A DNA stretch of 64,000 bases. It comes from Domibacillus indicus (GTDB taxonomy: Bacteria; Bacillota; Bacilli; Bacillales; Domibacillaceae). Below, in pieces: positions 57,580 through 64,000 of this stretch. Within the stretch, counting starts at the first letter, position 1. Every line of letters begins with the position of its first letter. The notes under the pieces were generated by a model. That model saw only the letters and a list, made by a program, of their open reading frames with translations. It had not been told where the DNA came from and did no database searches. The stretch lies in the NCBI RefSeq assembly GCF_023715895.1, contig NZ_JAMBOO010000002.1, positions 62,001 through 126,000 of the forward strand. The letters are read 5' to 3'. The position numbers and the translations under genes are program-made.

Positions 57580-58302
57580 TTATTTCCCCCTCACGATTGT
57601 TCCGATATTATCACCAAGTACAACGCGTTTGATGTTTCCTTTTTCCGTAACCGAGAAAACAACAAGCGGAATATCATTGTCCATGCATAGAGAAGAAGCA
57701 GTGGAATCCATAACCGCAAGTCCTTCCTTAATCACATCTAGGTAAGACAACTCTGAGTATTTAACCGCATCTTTGTCTACTTTTGGATCGGCGCTGTACA
57801 CGCCATCCACGTTGTTTTTCGCCATTAAAATAACTTCCGCTTCAATTTCAGCAGCACGCAGTGCAGCAGTTGTATCGGTTGAGAAGTAAGGATTTCCAGT
57901 ACCCGCAGCAAAAATAACAACACGACCTTTTTCCAAATGACGAATCGCACGACGGCGAATGTACGGCTCAGCAATCTGGCGCATTTCAATGGATGTCTGT
58001 ACGCGTGTTTCAATTCCGAGCTGTTCCAGACTGTCCTGCAGCGCCATTGAATTCATCACGGTTGCAAGCATCCCCATATAATCCGCTGTTGCGCGGTCCA
58101 TACCCATTTCGCTGCCAATCTTGCCGCGCCAAATGTTGCCGCCGCCTACCACAACTGCCACTTCCACATCCAGTTCGCTTACTTCTTTTACCTGTTCTGC
58201 AACAGATTGAATAACAGCAGGGTTAATCCCAAATCCTGCTTCACCTGCTAATGCTTCACCACTTAATTTTAATACAACACGTTTATACTTTGGCTGGCTC
58301 AT
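57580..58302 (-). CDS. pyrH: UMP kinase
   Basis: Hexameric bacterial UMP kinase, 240 residues; [43 protein letters not shown] and [15 protein letters not shown] are typical. The frame opens four codons upstream (ATG 58314), but ATG 58300-58302 is 5 nt from GGAGG and matches the family. Forms a unit with frr. Confidence 0.97.
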
Positions 58303-58329
58303 GTAGACCTCCATCTGTAATGTACATGA

Positions 58330-58357
58330 AATCCCTCACCAAGAGCGGCAAGGGATT
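58330..58357 (-). terminator. Weak terminator after tsf
   Basis: AATCCCT/AGGGATT arms (58330-58336, 58351-58357) with two more pairs inside, but only TTTC after the stem. Read-through into pyrH is likely. Confidence 0.5.
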
Positions 58358-58393
58358 CCATTTATTCCTTTCCGACCGGCGGATGCGGAATCA

Positions 58394-59275
58394 TTATTTT
58401 TTAACTTGGCTCATAACTTCTTCTGCAAAGTTATCTTGACGCTTTTCTAAGCCTTCGCCCACTTCGTAACGAACGAACTCAGTTAAAGTTGCTCCTTTAG
58501 ACTCAAGGAACTGGCGTACTTTTTGATCTGGATCTTTAACAAAGCTTTGATCCAAAATGCAGATTTCTTCAAAGAATTTGCCAAGACGGCCTTCAACCAT
58601 TTTTGCAACAATGTTTTCTGGTTTGCCTTCGTTAAGCGCTTGTTCTGTTAATACTTTACGCTCACGATCTACTTCTTCTTCAGAAACTTGGTCGCGTGAA
58701 ACATATTTTGGATTTAGTGCAGCTGCATGCATTGCTACATCTTTGGCTGCTGCAGCATCTGTAGTGCCTTCAACAATAGCTAATACGCCGATACGGCCGC
58801 CCATGTGCAGGTACTCACCAAATGCAGCGTTTTCGCCTTTTGTACGAATTTCAAAGCGGCGAAGTGTAATTTTTTCACCGATTTTCGAGATTGCTTCGCT
58901 GATGTACATATCAACTGTTTTACCGTTTTCCATTGTTTGTGCAAGAGCTTCTTCAACAGAAGCTGGCTTGTTCGCTAATAGGTGAGCTGCGATTTCTTTT
59001 ACAAGCACTTGGAAGTTTTCGTTTTTTGCAACGAAATCTGTTTCTGCATTTACTTCCAAAAGAACAGCTGTGTCGCCTTCACTTGTAATAAATGTTGTAC
59101 CTTCAGCTGCAATACGGTCTGATTTTTTCGCTGCTTTTGCAATTCCTTTTTCACGAAGGAAATCGATTGCTTGATCTAAATCACCGTTTGTTTCAACAAG
59201 TGCTTTTTTGCAGTCCATCATGCCTGCGCCTGTTTTTTCACGAAGTTCTTTTACCATTTGTGCAGTAATAGCCAT
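58394..59275 (-). CDS. tsf: Elongation factor Ts
   Basis: Nucleotide exchange factor for EF-Tu. 293 residues; [19 protein letters not shown] (about 8-26), [11 protein letters not shown] and [16 protein letters not shown] are family signatures. ATG after AAGGAGG. Follows rpsB, from which it is separated by a terminator and a small GC hairpin (59301-59315). Confidence 0.98.
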
Positions 59276-59333
59276 TTTGGTTCCTCCTTTAAATATGTAG
59301 AACCGCTATGCGGTTTTATTGTTTCTTTCTTTA

Positions 59334-59369
59334 AAAAAAGGTGATAAGGGTATCCCTCTTATCACCTTT
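59334..59369 (-). terminator. Terminator between rpsB and tsf
   Basis: Stem AAAGGTGATAAGGG with the complementary CCCTCTTATCACCTTT (one bulge), then seven T residues on the minus strand. Partial termination here would set the rpsB to tsf ratio. Confidence 0.85.
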
Positions 59370-59379
59370 ATCTGTTTCA

Positions 59380-60132
59380 TTACTCAGCTGCTGCTTCTGC
59401 TGTTTCAGCTTCTTGCACTTCTTCTTGAACTTCTTCTTCAGCGATTTCTTCGCCTTGTTTCGCTTCAAGAACAGCGTCAGCCATTTTACCTGTTAGAAGT
59501 TTAACCGCACGGATCGCATCATCGTTCGCTGGAATTACATAATCGATTTCATCCGGATCGCAGTTTGTATCAACGATACCTACGATAGGAATGTTCAATT
59601 TACGTGCTTCTGCAACAGCGATACGCTCTTTGCGTGGATCGATAATGAATAGGGCATCAGGAAGACCTTTCATATCACGAATACCGCCAAGGAATTTAAC
59701 AAGACGCTCATGCTCTTTTTTAAGCTGAACAACTTCTTTCTTTGGAAGTACTTCGAATGTACCGTCTTCTTGCATTTTTTCAATGTTTTTCAAACGTTGT
59801 ACACGCTTTTGGATTGTTGAGAAGTTAGTAAGTGTACCACCCAACCAGCGTTGGTTTACATAGTACATACCTGAACGTTCTGCTTCTTCTTTTACAGAAT
59901 CTTGTGCTTGTTTTTTTGTACCAACAAACAAGATTTTACCGCCGTCACCGGCAACTTCTCTTACAAATTTGTACGCTTCTTCCACTTTGCGAACGGTTTT
60001 TTGAAGATCGATGATGTAGATCCCGTTACGCTCTTGGAAAATGTACTTTTTCATTTTTGGGTTCCAACGGCGAGTTTGGTGACCGAAGTGAACGCCTGCT
60101 TCAAGCAATTGCTTCATAGAAATTACTGACAT
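59380..60132 (-). CDS. rpsB: 30S ribosomal protein S2
   Basis: 250 residues: [41 protein letters not shown] and the acidic C-terminal tail ([15 protein letters not shown]). The frame is open 36 codons upstream, but ATG 60130-60132 with AGGAGG is the real start. It has a clear SigA promoter and a structured leader of about 110 nt. Confidence 0.98.
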
Positions 60133-60243
60133 GTTTTGTTTCCTCCTGTTTGGTTTGATTTCCTCCGTCTTTCTCACACTCACACAGCTTCCGTCTGAGA
60201 CGGCACCGGCTGATGAATCAAAAGACGTGTGTATTAACACCGT
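60133..60243 (-). promoter_or_regulatory. rpsB 5' leader with hairpins
   Basis: About 110 nt. Contains a perfect CCGTCT-C-AGACGG hairpin (60191-60203) and a second CCGTCTTTC stretch nearer the gene that could compete for pairing, plus GTGT-ATTA-ACAC (60229-60240). This is the form expected of a ribosomal-protein leader that binds its product, but I cannot match it to a known S2 leader. Confidence 0.35.
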
Positions 60244-60248
60244 TAGTT

Positions 60249-60277
60249 ACTATAACACATTCGATATGGGGCTGCAA
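60249..60277 (-). promoter_or_regulatory. SigA promoter of rpsB
   Basis: On the minus strand TTGCAG (60272-60277), 17 bp, TATAGT (60249-60254), directly after the swrB stop. Confidence 0.75.
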
Positions 60278-60754
60278 CTACTTTCCTTCAGTTTTGTTAA
60301 ATTTAAGTGCAAGCTGCACTTCCGTTACCCCAATATGAAGCGTTTTTGCGATTTGTTCCTCTGTCATTCCCTGCTCTTTCATATCCGCTATTTTTTTCGA
60401 CTGCGGCACCTCCTTTTCTGTATTCCTTTCTACTTGGACTGTTTTTATCCCCGTATAGGCTTTGGCCGCAGCTTTTCGAGGCATGAGCGGAGGCAGTGGC
60501 TTTCCCCTGGGTTCTGGGTCTTTAGCATTTGATTTTTTTGCCGGAGGAATACTTCCCAATTTCGCAATAAGCTGCTCATTTTCTTCTTTTATTTCTATTA
60601 GGAAGGCCGTCATCATTTCTTCCATATCCTTTGCGGCCTGCTTTGCTTTTTTCTCCGAGTCGCTGATTTTGTTCTGCCGCTGGAAAAGGATAATCAGGGC
60701 AAATAAGCTCATCGCATGAATTAAAAAAGAAATGGTGATTAAAAATATTGTCAT
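60278..60754 (-). CDS. swrB: Swarming motility protein SwrB
   Basis: Membrane protein that in B. subtilis promotes flagellar type III export and SigD activity. 158 residues: one N-terminal membrane helix (2-25), a coiled coil (about 28-65), a Pro/Lys-rich linker, and a C-terminal helix-turn-helix-like segment (about 118-152, KIADMKEQGMTEEQIAKTLHIG). Position between sigD and rpsB matches B. subtilis ylxL/swrB. ATG 60752-60754 with a weak GAGGG site 4 nt away. Confidence 0.88.
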   Translation of the reverse strand: MTIFLITISFLIHAMSLFALIILFQRQNKISDSEKKAKQAAKDMEEMMTAFLIEIKEENEQLIAKLGSIPPAKKSNAKDPEPRGKPLPPLMPRKAAAKAYTGIKTVQVERNTEKEVPQSKKIADMKEQGMTEEQIAKTLHIGVTEVQLALKFNKTEGK

Positions 60755-60763
60755 ACGTCCCTC

Positions 60764-61056
60764 TTACCCGCTAAAGTCGATCTGCTTCCCTATTATAAGG
60801 ATGGGCATATCCCATCTTTTGCGGATTTCTTTTTTCTTTTTCTGTTTGTTTTGCTGCTCTTCGCCACCCTGCCCGCCTGTTTTGTTGCTTTGATGACTCT
60901 CAGCTGCCACCGTCCCTTTCCACTTCATTTCTTTGACGGCTTTATGCTGTATAGCTGCTGGGCAGCAAAAAAGGTCTGCTGGTGGTCTTGAGCCGGCTTT
61001 GCTCCTTCAAATGTACGTGGAAGCGCCACCTGCATTTCAATTGATTTAAAATCCAT
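60764..61056 (-). pseudogene. Frameshifted small gene between sigD and swrB
   Basis: ATG 61054-61056 with AGGGGG at 7 nt opens a frame MDFKSIEMQVALPRTFEGAK that resembles a small protein family I recall after sigD in other Bacillaceae. It stops after 43 codons (TGA 60925-60927). Reading continues sensibly in a second frame (AVKEMKWKGTVAAESHQ, then a Gln/Lys-rich stretch) and ends at TAA 60764-60766 with GKQIDFSG; the family-like HPY just before this end is in the third frame. So at least one and perhaps three frameshifts are present. Either decay or sequencing error; function unknown. Confidence 0.65.
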
Positions 61057-61081
61057 TTACCAGCCCCCTCTGCATTCATAT

Positions 61082-61843
61082 TTAATGCTTTAAGAGCTGC
61101 TGCTTCAACTTAAAAAGAGCTTTTGAATGGATTTGTGAGATACGTGAAGTGGATAAGTTTAATACCTCGCCAATTTCCGTAAGCGTCAATTCTTCTTTAT
61201 AAAAGAGATCAATCACCAGCTGCTCTTTATCTGTTAACTTTTTGATTTGCGAGGACAGCTCTTGAATCTGCTCCTGCTTGACCATTTCCTCCTCAGGTGT
61301 TTTGGTGCGCGGGTCTTTCAGTACAAACCCTCCTGCTTCCGGCTGATCAGGATCCTGCGCCTGTTCATCCATAGACAGTACATGAGAAAAAAAATGTTCC
61401 GCCATTGTATCTTGAATGTCGGCCACAGACATGCCAAGTTCGTCGGCTACCTCTTCGGGTGTAGCCGCACGTAAGTATTTCTGTTCAAGCATTGAAGAAA
61501 CTGCTTCAATTTTTTTGGATTTTTCTCTCGTTGCCCGCGGCAGCCAGTCCTCTTTTCTGAGACCGTCTAAAATGGCGCCACGGATCCGAAAAGAAGCATA
61601 GGTGTCAAACTTTAAATCTCGTGATGGTTCAAACTTCAGCAGAGCATCGTAAAGCCCTGTCATTCCATAGCTCGCTATTTCTTCCCTGCTTACTGTTTTT
61701 GGGAGAGCTGCTCCAATACGCCGACAATGAAATGTGACAAGCGGCATATAACGAGCTACCAGTGCATCTCCAGCATCGGGATGCTGTTCCTGCTTCCATC
61801 TTTCCCATAGTTTTTGCTCATCTTCAGGCATTTTTCGTGCCAT
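61082..61843 (-). CDS. sigD: RNA polymerase sigma factor SigD (motility)
   Basis: FliA/WhiG-type sigma for flagellin, autolysins and chemotaxis genes. 253 residues: region 2 (YMPLVTFHCRRIGAALPKTVS, YGMTGLYDALLKFEPSRDLK), region 3 (RATREKSKKIEAVSSMLEQ) and region 4 with the helix-turn-helix LTLTEIGEVLNLSTSRISQIHSKAL-type end. ATG 61841-61843 after AAGGAGAGG. A terminator precedes it and it has its own SigA-like promoter, unlike the long fla/che read-through known from B. subtilis. Confidence 0.97.
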   Translation of the reverse strand: MARKMPEDEQKLWERWKQEQHPDAGDALVARYMPLVTFHCRRIGAALPKTVSREEIASYGMTGLYDALLKFEPSRDLKFDTYASFRIRGAILDGLRKEDWLPRATREKSKKIEAVSSMLEQKYLRAATPEEVADELGMSVADIQDTMAEHFFSHVLSMDEQAQDPDQPEAGGFVLKDPRTKTPEEEMVKQEQIQELSSQIKKLTDKEQLVIDLFYKEELTLTEIGEVLNLSTSRISQIHSKALFKLKQQLLKH

Positions 61844-61894
61844 TGAACCTCTCCTTCCGGCGTACGACTACAACACGCTGCAAGTCTTTCTTTT

Positions 61895-61923
61895 ATTCTA
61901 ATGAAAAGTATTTCTTTTGCCAA
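61895..61923 (-). promoter_or_regulatory. SigA-type promoter of sigD
   Basis: On the minus strand TTGGCA (61918-61923), 17 bp, TAGAAT (61895-61900), between the cheD terminator and sigD. Confidence 0.6.
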
Positions 61924-61934
61924 CAATATACACT

Positions 61935-61962
61935 AAAAAGCAGCGGACATCCGTCCGCTGCT
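61935..61962 (-). terminator. Terminator between cheD and sigD
   Basis: Perfect 9-bp GC-rich stem AGCAGCGGA/TCCGCTGCT (61939-61947, 61954-61962), 6-nt loop, then TTTTT on the minus strand. Confidence 0.85.
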
Positions 61963-61970
61963 CGCTCAAA

Positions 61971-62471
61971 TTAAATCTTTTGTTCTCCCTTATTAACTGT
62001 CCGAATATGCAAAAGAAACGTCATTGGATCGAATTCAATCGTTCTGCCGCTGCTGCCGCCGGTATCTTCTGAAAGAATAGGAATATGGGCTTTTTGCAGC
62101 TGTTCTTTTACAGCAGCTACATTCCGGGGGCCGATTTTCATTAAATCAGAACCTGATTTAAATTGAAACATCTGGGCGCCTCCCGCTATTTTCGCCTTCA
62201 GGCGACCTGGACGGACCCCCTGTTTTGCAAGCTCCGCAATTAGCGCTTGAATACCCGTATCGGCAAATTTGGCTTTATTTTTAATATCAGCTTTTGCAAG
62301 ATTGGAATCCGGAAGCATCACATGGACCATTCCCGCTATGTGTGACACTTCATCGTAAAGAACAACCCCGACACAGGAGCCGAGCCCGGAAGTTCGAATC
62401 ATATTCGGCGGCTTGACGATATTCATGTCTGCGATACCGACTTTGATGATTTCACCTATTTTATTTATCAT
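61971..62471 (-). CDS. cheD: Chemoreceptor glutamine deamidase CheD
   Basis: Deamidates receptor glutamines and binds CheC. 166 residues, the B. subtilis length; catalytic Cys33 (LGSCVGV) and His50 (MVHVMLP) are in the same places. The frame opens far upstream, but ATG 62469-62471 lies within the last codons of cheC (11-nt overlap) and gives the family start. The ribosome site is weak (GGTG), so translation is probably coupled to cheC. Confidence 0.95.
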   Translation of the reverse strand: MINKIGEIIKVGIADMNIVKPPNMIRTSGLGSCVGVVLYDEVSHIAGMVHVMLPDSNLAKADIKNKAKFADTGIQALIAELAKQGVRPGRLKAKIAGGAQMFQFKSGSDLMKIGPRNVAAVKEQLQKAHIPILSEDTGGSSGRTIEFDPMTFLLHIRTVNKGEQKI

Positions 62472-63102
62472 AGCCTGCACCAAGCGCTTTAAACAAAATA
62501 GGAAAAGAATCCGGTGACAGAAAAAGAAAGAAATGGCCTTTGACCGTTTCAACGTCTCCTTCATCCGTTTCAGTTAAAATCGTATCAATGACGATGGTAT
62601 AATCGCTGTATTGAGAGATCTCAAGCAGCCCATAGCTAATGATTGCGCCAAACATATCCACCGCCAGTTCTGGTACGGAAGGCTGCAGCTTGAGCTGTGT
62701 AAAATCTCCCAAAGCAGACAAGTATGAACCAGATAAAATATTGCCCATTTCCTGCATGGCAGAAAAGCCGATCGTATGCGTATCATGTTCGCGGAATGTA
62801 AAGGATTCGTCACCCATTAATTTTTGAATAAAACGATCGGCTTCTTCAACAGCCAGCATAAAAAACATATTGCCGCCTGCTTCCCCTTCAATTCGCAAGC
62901 TCACACTGACTACTTCTTTTTCAGAGCCGCCGGTTAGCTCCATCATCTCTGCAAAAGGAACAATCCGGACGTTCGGGACCTTCATATCAATTTTCCGGTT
63001 TAATAAAGTGGAAAGGGACGTCGCCGCATGACCTGCTCCTATATTGCCTACTTCTTTTAAAATATCAAGGTGAATGGGTTGAATTCTATCAATATAATTC
63101 AT
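62461..63102 (-). CDS. cheC: CheY-P phosphatase CheC
   Basis: Removes phosphate from CheY and partners CheD in the adaptation loop. 213 residues with both phosphatase sites: D13-x3-E17-x2-N20 (DILKEVGN) and S114-x3-E118-x2-N121 (SAMQEMGN). ATG 63100-63102. Between cheW and cheD as in B. subtilis. Confidence 0.95.
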   Translation of the reverse strand: MNYIDRIQPIHLDILKEVGNIGAGHAATSLSTLLNRKIDMKVPNVRIVPFAEMMELTGGSEKEVVSVSLRIEGEAGGNMFFMLAVEEADRFIQKLMGDESFTFREHDTHTIGFSAMQEMGNILSGSYLSALGDFTQLKLQPSVPELAVDMFGAIISYGLLEISQYSDYTIVIDTILTETDEGDVETVKGHFFLFLSPDSFPILFKALGAGYDK

Positions 63103-63112
63103 AGCAGCAGCC

Positions 63113-63550
63113 TTAGTTGAAAATCTTCTGCAGGCTCAGCATAATAAGCAGCCTTTTTTCAAGTTTTGCTACACCTGTTATATACTCATCTCCAAGTGAG
63201 CCTACCACTTCGGGCTGAGGCTCAATGGCATCTACCGGAATATCAAGTACGTCGTTGGCACCGTCTACAACCAGTCCCACCTCAATATCATCAAAAGAAG
63301 CAATAATAATACGGGTTGATTCATCATATTGTTTATCCGACAAACCGAAACGGCTGCGAAGGTCAATAATCGGCGTTACAACCCCTCTTAAATTAATAAC
63401 CCCTTTCACAAAAGGAACTGTTCCCGGGACACGTGTAATATGCATTAACTTCTCAATAGAGTAAACCTGGTGAACGGGAAGTGCATATTCTTTATCTACC
63501 AGCTGAAAAGCTATCACTTTTACTGTTTCAGATGCAAGGGTTTCACTCAT
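63113..63550 (-). CDS. cheW: Chemotaxis coupling protein CheW
   Basis: Bridges receptors and CheA. 145 residues; KVIAFQLVDKEYALPVHQV, VPGTVPFVKGVINLRGVVTP and the GLVVDGANDVLDI segment are typical. The frame opens three codons upstream, but ATG 63548-63550 is 8 nt from AAGGAGG. 13 nt after cheA. Confidence 0.96.
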   Translation of the reverse strand: MSETLASETVKVIAFQLVDKEYALPVHQVYSIEKLMHITRVPGTVPFVKGVINLRGVVTPIIDLRSRFGLSDKQYDESTRIIIASFDDIEVGLVVDGANDVLDIPVDAIEPQPEVVGSLGDEYITGVAKLEKRLLIMLSLQKIFN

Positions 63551-63563
63551 TTGATGCACCTCC

Positions 63564-64000
63564 TTATTTAATCAGCGCATTGCAATCTACAATCAGCGCT
63601 ACTTGTCCGTCTCCGAGTATAGTCGCGCCGGAGATCGCAAAAACATTTGATAAGTAGTTTCCGAGTGATTTAAGCACTACTTCCTGCTGTCCGATAAATG
63701 AATCTACCACTAATCCAGCCATCTTTTCCCCTTTGCGGACGAGGACAACAGAGTAAAAACGGTCGTCATCTTCTTCATGCGGCACAGAGAAAATATCCTC
63801 TAAAAACAAAAGAGGTACTACCTTTCCACGGAAATCAATGACCTGCTGGTTATGCGCATGCATAATATCTTCTTTTTTGACAATCGCCGTTTCGATAATA
63901 GAAGACAAAGGAATGGCATATTTTTCTTTTTCCACTTCGACGAGCATAACAGAAATAATCGATAGTGTCAGCGGCAGCTGAATGGAGAAGATGGAGCCTG
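63564..64000 (-). CDS. cheA: Chemotaxis histidine kinase CheA (C-terminal part, cut by window edge)
   Basis: Only the last 145 or so residues are inside the window. They start within the end of the ATPase domain (GSIFSIQLPLTLSII) and then form the CheW-like P5 domain (VEVEKEKYAIPLSSIIETAIV, FRGKVVPLLFLEDIF, VVDSFIGQQEVVLKSLG). The phosphotransfer, CheY-binding and most of the kinase domain lie outside. Upstream gene of cheW. Confidence 0.96.
   Translation of the reverse strand, partial: GSIFSIQLPLTLSIISVMLVEVEKEKYAIPLSSIIETAIVKKEDIMHAHNQQVIDFRGKVVPLLFLEDIFSVPHEEDDDRFYSVVLVRKGEKMAGLVVDSFIGQQEVVLKSLGNYLSNVFAISGATILGDGQVALIVDCNALIK

Follow-up and report, generated by a model that had tools for sequence, protein, structure and literature searches.

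The junction between cheD and sigD in Domibacillus indicus quite likely marks a transcription-unit boundary, at which a predicted terminator follows cheD, sigD has its own sigma-A-type promoter, and the supply of SigD would come mainly from that promoter. This reading rests on sequence, folding, conservation, and gene order. The window, the whole stretch of DNA analyzed here, comprises 64,000 nucleotides of contig NZ_JAMBOO010000002.1. On its minus strand, cheD (stop at 61971) is followed by a hairpin with a T-run, the element TTGGCA-17-TAGAAT, and then sigD (ATG at 61843) with its ribosome-binding site in front. Table 1 summarizes the features of the locus. The closest named SigD among the matches listed, 98% identical, is that of Domibacillus sp. 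PGB-M46. The DUF6115 gene after sigD, which we take to resemble swrB, would possibly be carried on the sigD transcript.

Table 1. Features of the cheD-sigD locus (positions in the window).
Feature	Position	Strand	Basis
cheD	61971..62471	-	PF03975 CheD, E 6.3e-37
Intrinsic-terminator-like hairpin and T-run	61935..61962	-	Sequence, folding; kept in 13/13 Domibacillus genomes
-35 element TTGGCA of the predicted sigD promoter	61918..61923	-	6/6 positions invariant, both with n=12 and with n=13
Conserved spacer box CTTTTCAT, directly upstream of -10	61901..61908	-	7/8 positions invariant (n=12), 6/8 (n=13)
-10 element TAGAAT of the predicted sigD promoter	61895..61900	-	TA[AG]A[AC]T with 17-nt spacing, 13/13
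Ribosome-binding site GGAAGGAGAGG of sigD	61848..61858	-	Sequence
sigD, 253 aa, FliA/WhiG-type sigma factor	61082..61843	-	NF005809, E 8.6e-118; Sigma70 r2, r3, r4
swrB-like gene (DUF6115)	60278..60754	-	PF19610, E 1.9e-7

A small gene lies between sigD and the swrB-like gene in part of the genus. It is open, with 97 to 101 aa, in five loci (L007, L008, L009, L011, and L012), and no such frame was listed in four others (L005, L006, L010, and L013). The window's genome has short frames at this place (60755-61081, minus strand), and the gene is also disturbed in its two nearest relatives (the three loci together being L002, L003, and L004). Judged from these frames, the gene seems to be decaying in the three genomes.

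The hairpin at 61962-61935 of the minus strand reads AGCAGCGGAC-GGAT-GTCCGCTGCT, then TTTT, and starts 8 nt past the cheD stop. The sequence-only reading had described a perfect 9-bp stem with a T-run after cheD; this was confirmed, and the stem is slightly longer (10 pairs, and 11 in the hairpin scan). Folding of the 51-nt hairpin stretch resulted in -20.9 kcal/mol (z -5.1), and 0 of 200 shuffles were as low. With a G+C-rich stem, a T-run directly 3' of it, and a stability above chance, the element is predicted to be an intrinsic (Rho-independent) terminator. The window's group has a short T-run (TTTTT, then A), whose first T is paired. No Rfam element matched in 58000-64000. Among the Domibacillus loci, the stem starts only 2 to 8 nt past the cheD stop; therefore, a terminating ribosome could hinder the folding of the hairpin if translation keeps pace with transcription.

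The fla/che genes span approximately 26 kb, from flgB (contig position 149854) to cheD (end at 123971); we assigned topA, codY, rpsB, flg, and most of the fla/che gene names by eye, presumably correctly. A scan for hairpins followed by a T-run covered 36 kb on this strand of the window's contig and listed sites down from -9. The four strongest sites were located after topA (-21.0), codY (-20.9), cheD (-18.8), and rpsB (-16.7), and the codY hairpin sits just before flgB. The 10 matches between flgB and cheD were weaker (-9.3 to -15.4), and all of them fell inside called ORFs. The codY and cheD hairpins thus appear to bracket the 26-kb operon. Since hairpins of similar strength stand at both flanks, fla/che most likely ends at cheD, with sigD as a separate sigma-A-type unit.

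The predicted sigD promoter, TTGGCA-17-TAGAAT, occupies 61923-61895, matches the consensus at 10 of 12 positions, and lies 51 nt upstream of the sigD ATG. Its hexamers are near TTGACA and TATAAT, and the 17-nt spacing lies within 16-18 nt, as expected of a sigma-A-type promoter. A single match of this kind, taken alone, would not stand out from chance: the consensus scan of 14 kb found 22 promoter-like sites against 20.1 expected from shuffles, and 19 of 2000 shuffles of the cheD-sigD gap reached 10/12. We accepted the promoter because TTGGCA-N17-TA[AG]A[AC]T is conserved in 13 of 13 Domibacillus genomes, and not because of its match score; the earlier claim of such an element between the hairpin and sigD is thus borne out. 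The sigD transcript is predicted to start near 61888.

Other sigma factors were considered for the same region. The sigma-54 and sigma-H readings were rejected by eye against consensus sequences, as the spacing or the variants TAAAAT and TAAACT did not fit. The sigma-D promoter consensus is TAAA-N14-16-GCCGATAT. A sigma-D reading, with autoregulation of sigD, was rejected as well, for no match of at least 9/12 was found in the gap plus 100 nt upstream of the 12 Domibacillus loci with cheD, in a scan that misses weak sites. As a separate observation, a CTTTT box stands directly upstream of the -10 in 12 of 13 genomes (61901-61908 in the window) and, by eye, also in the fla/che promoter region of the genus (codY-flgB gaps, L182-L194), where 11 of the 12 readable cases have it. 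We claim no shared regulator for it, because the two promoters place it at different distances from the -10 (4 and 3 nt, by eye).

The hairpin, the T-run, and the promoter with its 17-nt spacing were all present in 13 of 13 Domibacillus genomes. In 12 of these loci, cheD lies upstream of sigD; the thirteenth is locus L015 of the draft genome G011. Across the 12 genomes, the invariant positions were 15/16 in the stem, 4/4 in the T-run, 6/6 in the -35, and 4/6 in the -10. Within the spacer, 7 of the last 8 positions were invariant versus 1 of the first 9, and the loop and the leader had 0/9 and 3/50 invariant positions, respectively. None of the four-fold sites was invariant (0/53 in sigD and 0/48 in cheD, 0/101 together). 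With 13 genomes, the counts were 13/16 for the stem, 4/4 for the T-run, 6/6 for the -35, 4/6 for the -10, and 6/8 for the last part of the spacer. Covariation support for the stem is moderate. With 13 rows, the covariation score and the percentage paired were each matched by 3 of 500 shuffles, but 70 of 500 matched the count of stem pairs with a two-sided change; six of the ten stem pairs never vary. With 12 rows, the same three measures were matched by 2, 15, and 366 of 500 shuffles, respectively.

This pattern indicates that the predicted hairpin and promoter are real and under selection in Domibacillus. An accidental hairpin next to an accidental promoter match would agree with the frequency of promoter-like sites in the region, which equals that of shuffles; the module is, however, kept in 13/13 genomes where neutral sites are saturated, and therefore chance is rejected for the genus, with next to no probability left for it. 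Stable intergenic hairpins can also shield mRNA ends, and the hairpin could accordingly be a 3'-end stabiliser or processing site within one long transcript rather than a terminator. Such shielding is the point in favor of that alternative, which we regard as very improbable given an invariant T-run directly 3' of the stem, followed by the invariant -35.

The thirteenth genome adds support to the boundary reading, because the module is kept without cheD. G011 is a draft (2.1 Mb, 77% complete), and its sigD contig has 3919 bases. The order at 1-1830 is an flhF-like fragment, an flhG-like gene, 215 nt, and sigD; the flhF-like and flhG-like names were given by eye and are presumed. The 215-nt gap harbors a hairpin followed by a T-run (-17.2 kcal/mol, z -4.0; 2 of 200 shuffles reached this energy) and the promoter TTGGCA-17-TAAAAT, and one stem pair is changed on both sides, from C-G to A-U. 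Since the upstream gene is flhG-like and not cheD, the module goes with sigD. The 77% complete genome gave no CheD and no CheW-family match, against 1 and 3, respectively, in the comparison genome G008. The genes from flhG to cheD thus seem to have been lost, with the predicted terminator and promoter retained by sigD, or the draft may have a gap or misassembly here.

We then surveyed other Bacillales. A total of 142 loci were scanned (L002-L015 and L032-L159; L016-L031 are other sigma factors), and the relative G057, with only a distant sigma factor (E 5e-19), was left out. Seven loci without a CheD match were set aside (L014, L015, L065, L150, L156, L157, and L159), of which L015 was later re-examined. 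The remaining 135 loci, minus 17 duplicates, gave 118 distinct loci with cheD and sigD; the 80 named loci are the best 80 of at least 577 and are biased toward near relatives. Gaps shorter than 60 nt occurred in 33 of the 118 loci, 0 with a hairpin. Among the 85 longer gaps, 46 had one (46/118 loci), against a mean of 4.2 and a maximum of 7 in 20 rounds of shuffling and, for 108 coding windows used as a control, a mean of 3.0. Outside Domibacillus, the hairpin was found in 34 of 73 longer gaps (34/106 loci), of which four lie inside a plus-strand open frame of at least 60 aa and may be false. A cut-off of -12 lowered the counts from 46 to 35 overall and from 34 to 23 outside Domibacillus.

By group, the hairpin was found in 8/8 Sporosarcina, 2/2 Lysinibacillus, 2/2 Psychrobacillus, 3/4 Niallia, and 3/5 badius-group loci. 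On a rapidly built tree, the hairpin is gained or lost at least 18 times, a figure that includes prediction noise; the tree comes from FastTree only, leaves 35 of 115 inner branches open, and has many long branches. Outside Domibacillus, sigma-A-like matches downstream of the hairpin exceeded the shuffles only slightly: 16/34 at 9/12 (shuffle mean 9.3, maximum 15) and 3/34 at 10/12 (shuffles 1.7, maximum 5). The terminator does recur, and the private promoter is, for this reason, well supported only within Domibacillus. Other Bacillales thus share with Domibacillus a hairpin and T-run before sigD, whereas the hairpin sequences look unrelated, the promoter evidence is weak, and in some loci a small membrane-protein-like gene separates cheD from the hairpin.

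Frames of approximately 100 aa were seen in ten cheD-sigD gaps (L034, L039, L042, L045, L110, L112, L130, L138, L140, and L146), with a membrane-like N-terminus and an acidic C-terminus by eye; in Pfam, three examples gave nothing above the cut-off. Neither the 12 Domibacillus nor the 16 subtilis-group loci have a gap long enough for such a frame. In the badius/aerolatus/wudalianchiensis group, a sigma-D-like motif precedes sigD, with 10 to 11/12 in L033, L037, and L038 and 9/12 in L036; it is absent in L035. It represents one shared site, not independent cases. Sigma-D-like matches of at least 11/12 were seen once across 116 kb of shuffled gaps. The motif may reflect direct autoregulation, and a sigma-A reading of it is possible too.

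Under the boundary reading, polymerase moving from flgB through fla/che would mostly halt at the intrinsic terminator after cheD, and TTGGCA-17-TAGAAT would drive sigD on a transcript of its own, which has approximately 45 nt of leader and probably continues into the swrB-like gene. The supply of SigD would be set mainly by its own promoter together with the anti-sigma factor FlgM; how frequently polymerase reaches the end of the 26-kb operon would matter much less. The main competitor is a strengthened form of the B. subtilis design, in which a leaky terminator, perhaps tuned by NusA/NusG, lets fla/che readthrough feed sigD in addition to a basal promoter of its own. According to the accessible part of PMC9250202, B. 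subtilis combines long-operon transcription with a promoter before sigD, and NusA and NusG affect the share of sigD in its operon, as the accessible part of PMC8060035 states; moreover, the Domibacillus terminator is predicted from sequence and could have any efficiency. However, the strength of the cheD stem is near that of the codY hairpin (-18.8 vs -20.9), and no position of the -35 varies among the 13 genomes, which suggests an important role for the promoter. We consider such a dual input unlikely, though clearly less remote than chance or a stabilising hairpin.

Taking the boundary as the preferred reading, the operon-length motility switch of B. subtilis probably does not work likewise in Domibacillus, and an altered fraction of motile cells, as proposed from the sequence, would be a reasonable consequence. 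More tentatively, and with less than even confidence, the coupling of sigD to fla/che may be a lineage-specific switch design, repeatedly made and broken in Bacillales: in the subtilis group, sigD would be read from the end of a long operon; in Domibacillus, transcription would begin at a sigma-A promoter past a terminator, which is kept with sigD even without the che genes; and some members of the sister badius group may use a sigma-D-type promoter, with direct autoregulation. If so, the three designs would yield different motile-cell fractions. How far sigD lies from the fla/che promoter has been considered, for B. subtilis, to help set the share of motile cells; Cozy and Kearns, cited in PMC8060035, reportedly found, in 2010, that the 3' part of the operon is expressed at a lower level. 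Relatives with the same gene order, together with a terminator and a private promoter, offer a natural control for the operon-length model. If such relatives are still bistable, operon length is not required, and if they are uniformly motile, the model gains support.

Other parts of the B. subtilis switch were searched for in the genus. SwrA closes a feedback loop on the B. subtilis fla/che operon, according to the accessible part of PMC3874003; a search for SwrA (PF17423) gave no match in any of the 13 Domibacillus genomes, of which one is 77% complete, and the B. subtilis control was positive. FlgM was found in 12 of 13. A PD-3-type sigma-D site before flgB reached at best 9/12 in 12 readable upstream regions, a 13th region being cut by a contig end, in a scan that is too insensitive, as the control B. 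spizizenii also reached only 9/12. The exact genome-wide sigma-D pattern gave 13 matches versus 12 in the reversed control and is hence uninformative, and in a looser scan of four flagellin loci, a single plausible site turned up upstream of a flagellin gene (L177, 10/12). In the titles and abstract starts of the literature searched, we found no report of a terminator between cheD and sigD, or of sigD in Domibacillus.

A minor promoter before B. subtilis sigD is said to be known from work of Allmansberger in 1997 and of West and colleagues in 2000. The accessible part of PMC9250202 places the only promoter annotated downstream of flgE immediately upstream of sigD, and that of PMC8060035 describes sigD as the penultimate gene of a 27-kb operon transcript. 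B. subtilis and Domibacillus thus have in common sigD after cheD at the end of fla/che and a promoter directly before it, and the operon-position effect on the SigD level involves this very gene in this position. That effect, however, requires an uninterrupted transcript with sigD at its distal end, whereas the Domibacillus transcript is predicted to stop before sigD, with a terminator in 12 of 12 loci with cheD and in L015. The 16 loci of the subtilis/pumilus/licheniformis group all have a gap of 22 to 26 nt without a terminator (hairpin in 0/16), in contrast to the terminator and conserved free-standing promoter of Domibacillus. The proposal that sigD is separable from the che genes by a terminator and a private promoter therefore holds for a conserved, boundary-like junction and not for the promoter as its special feature: a promoter before sigD is already known in B. 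subtilis, and the predicted terminator, absent from the subtilis group, is what sets this junction apart.
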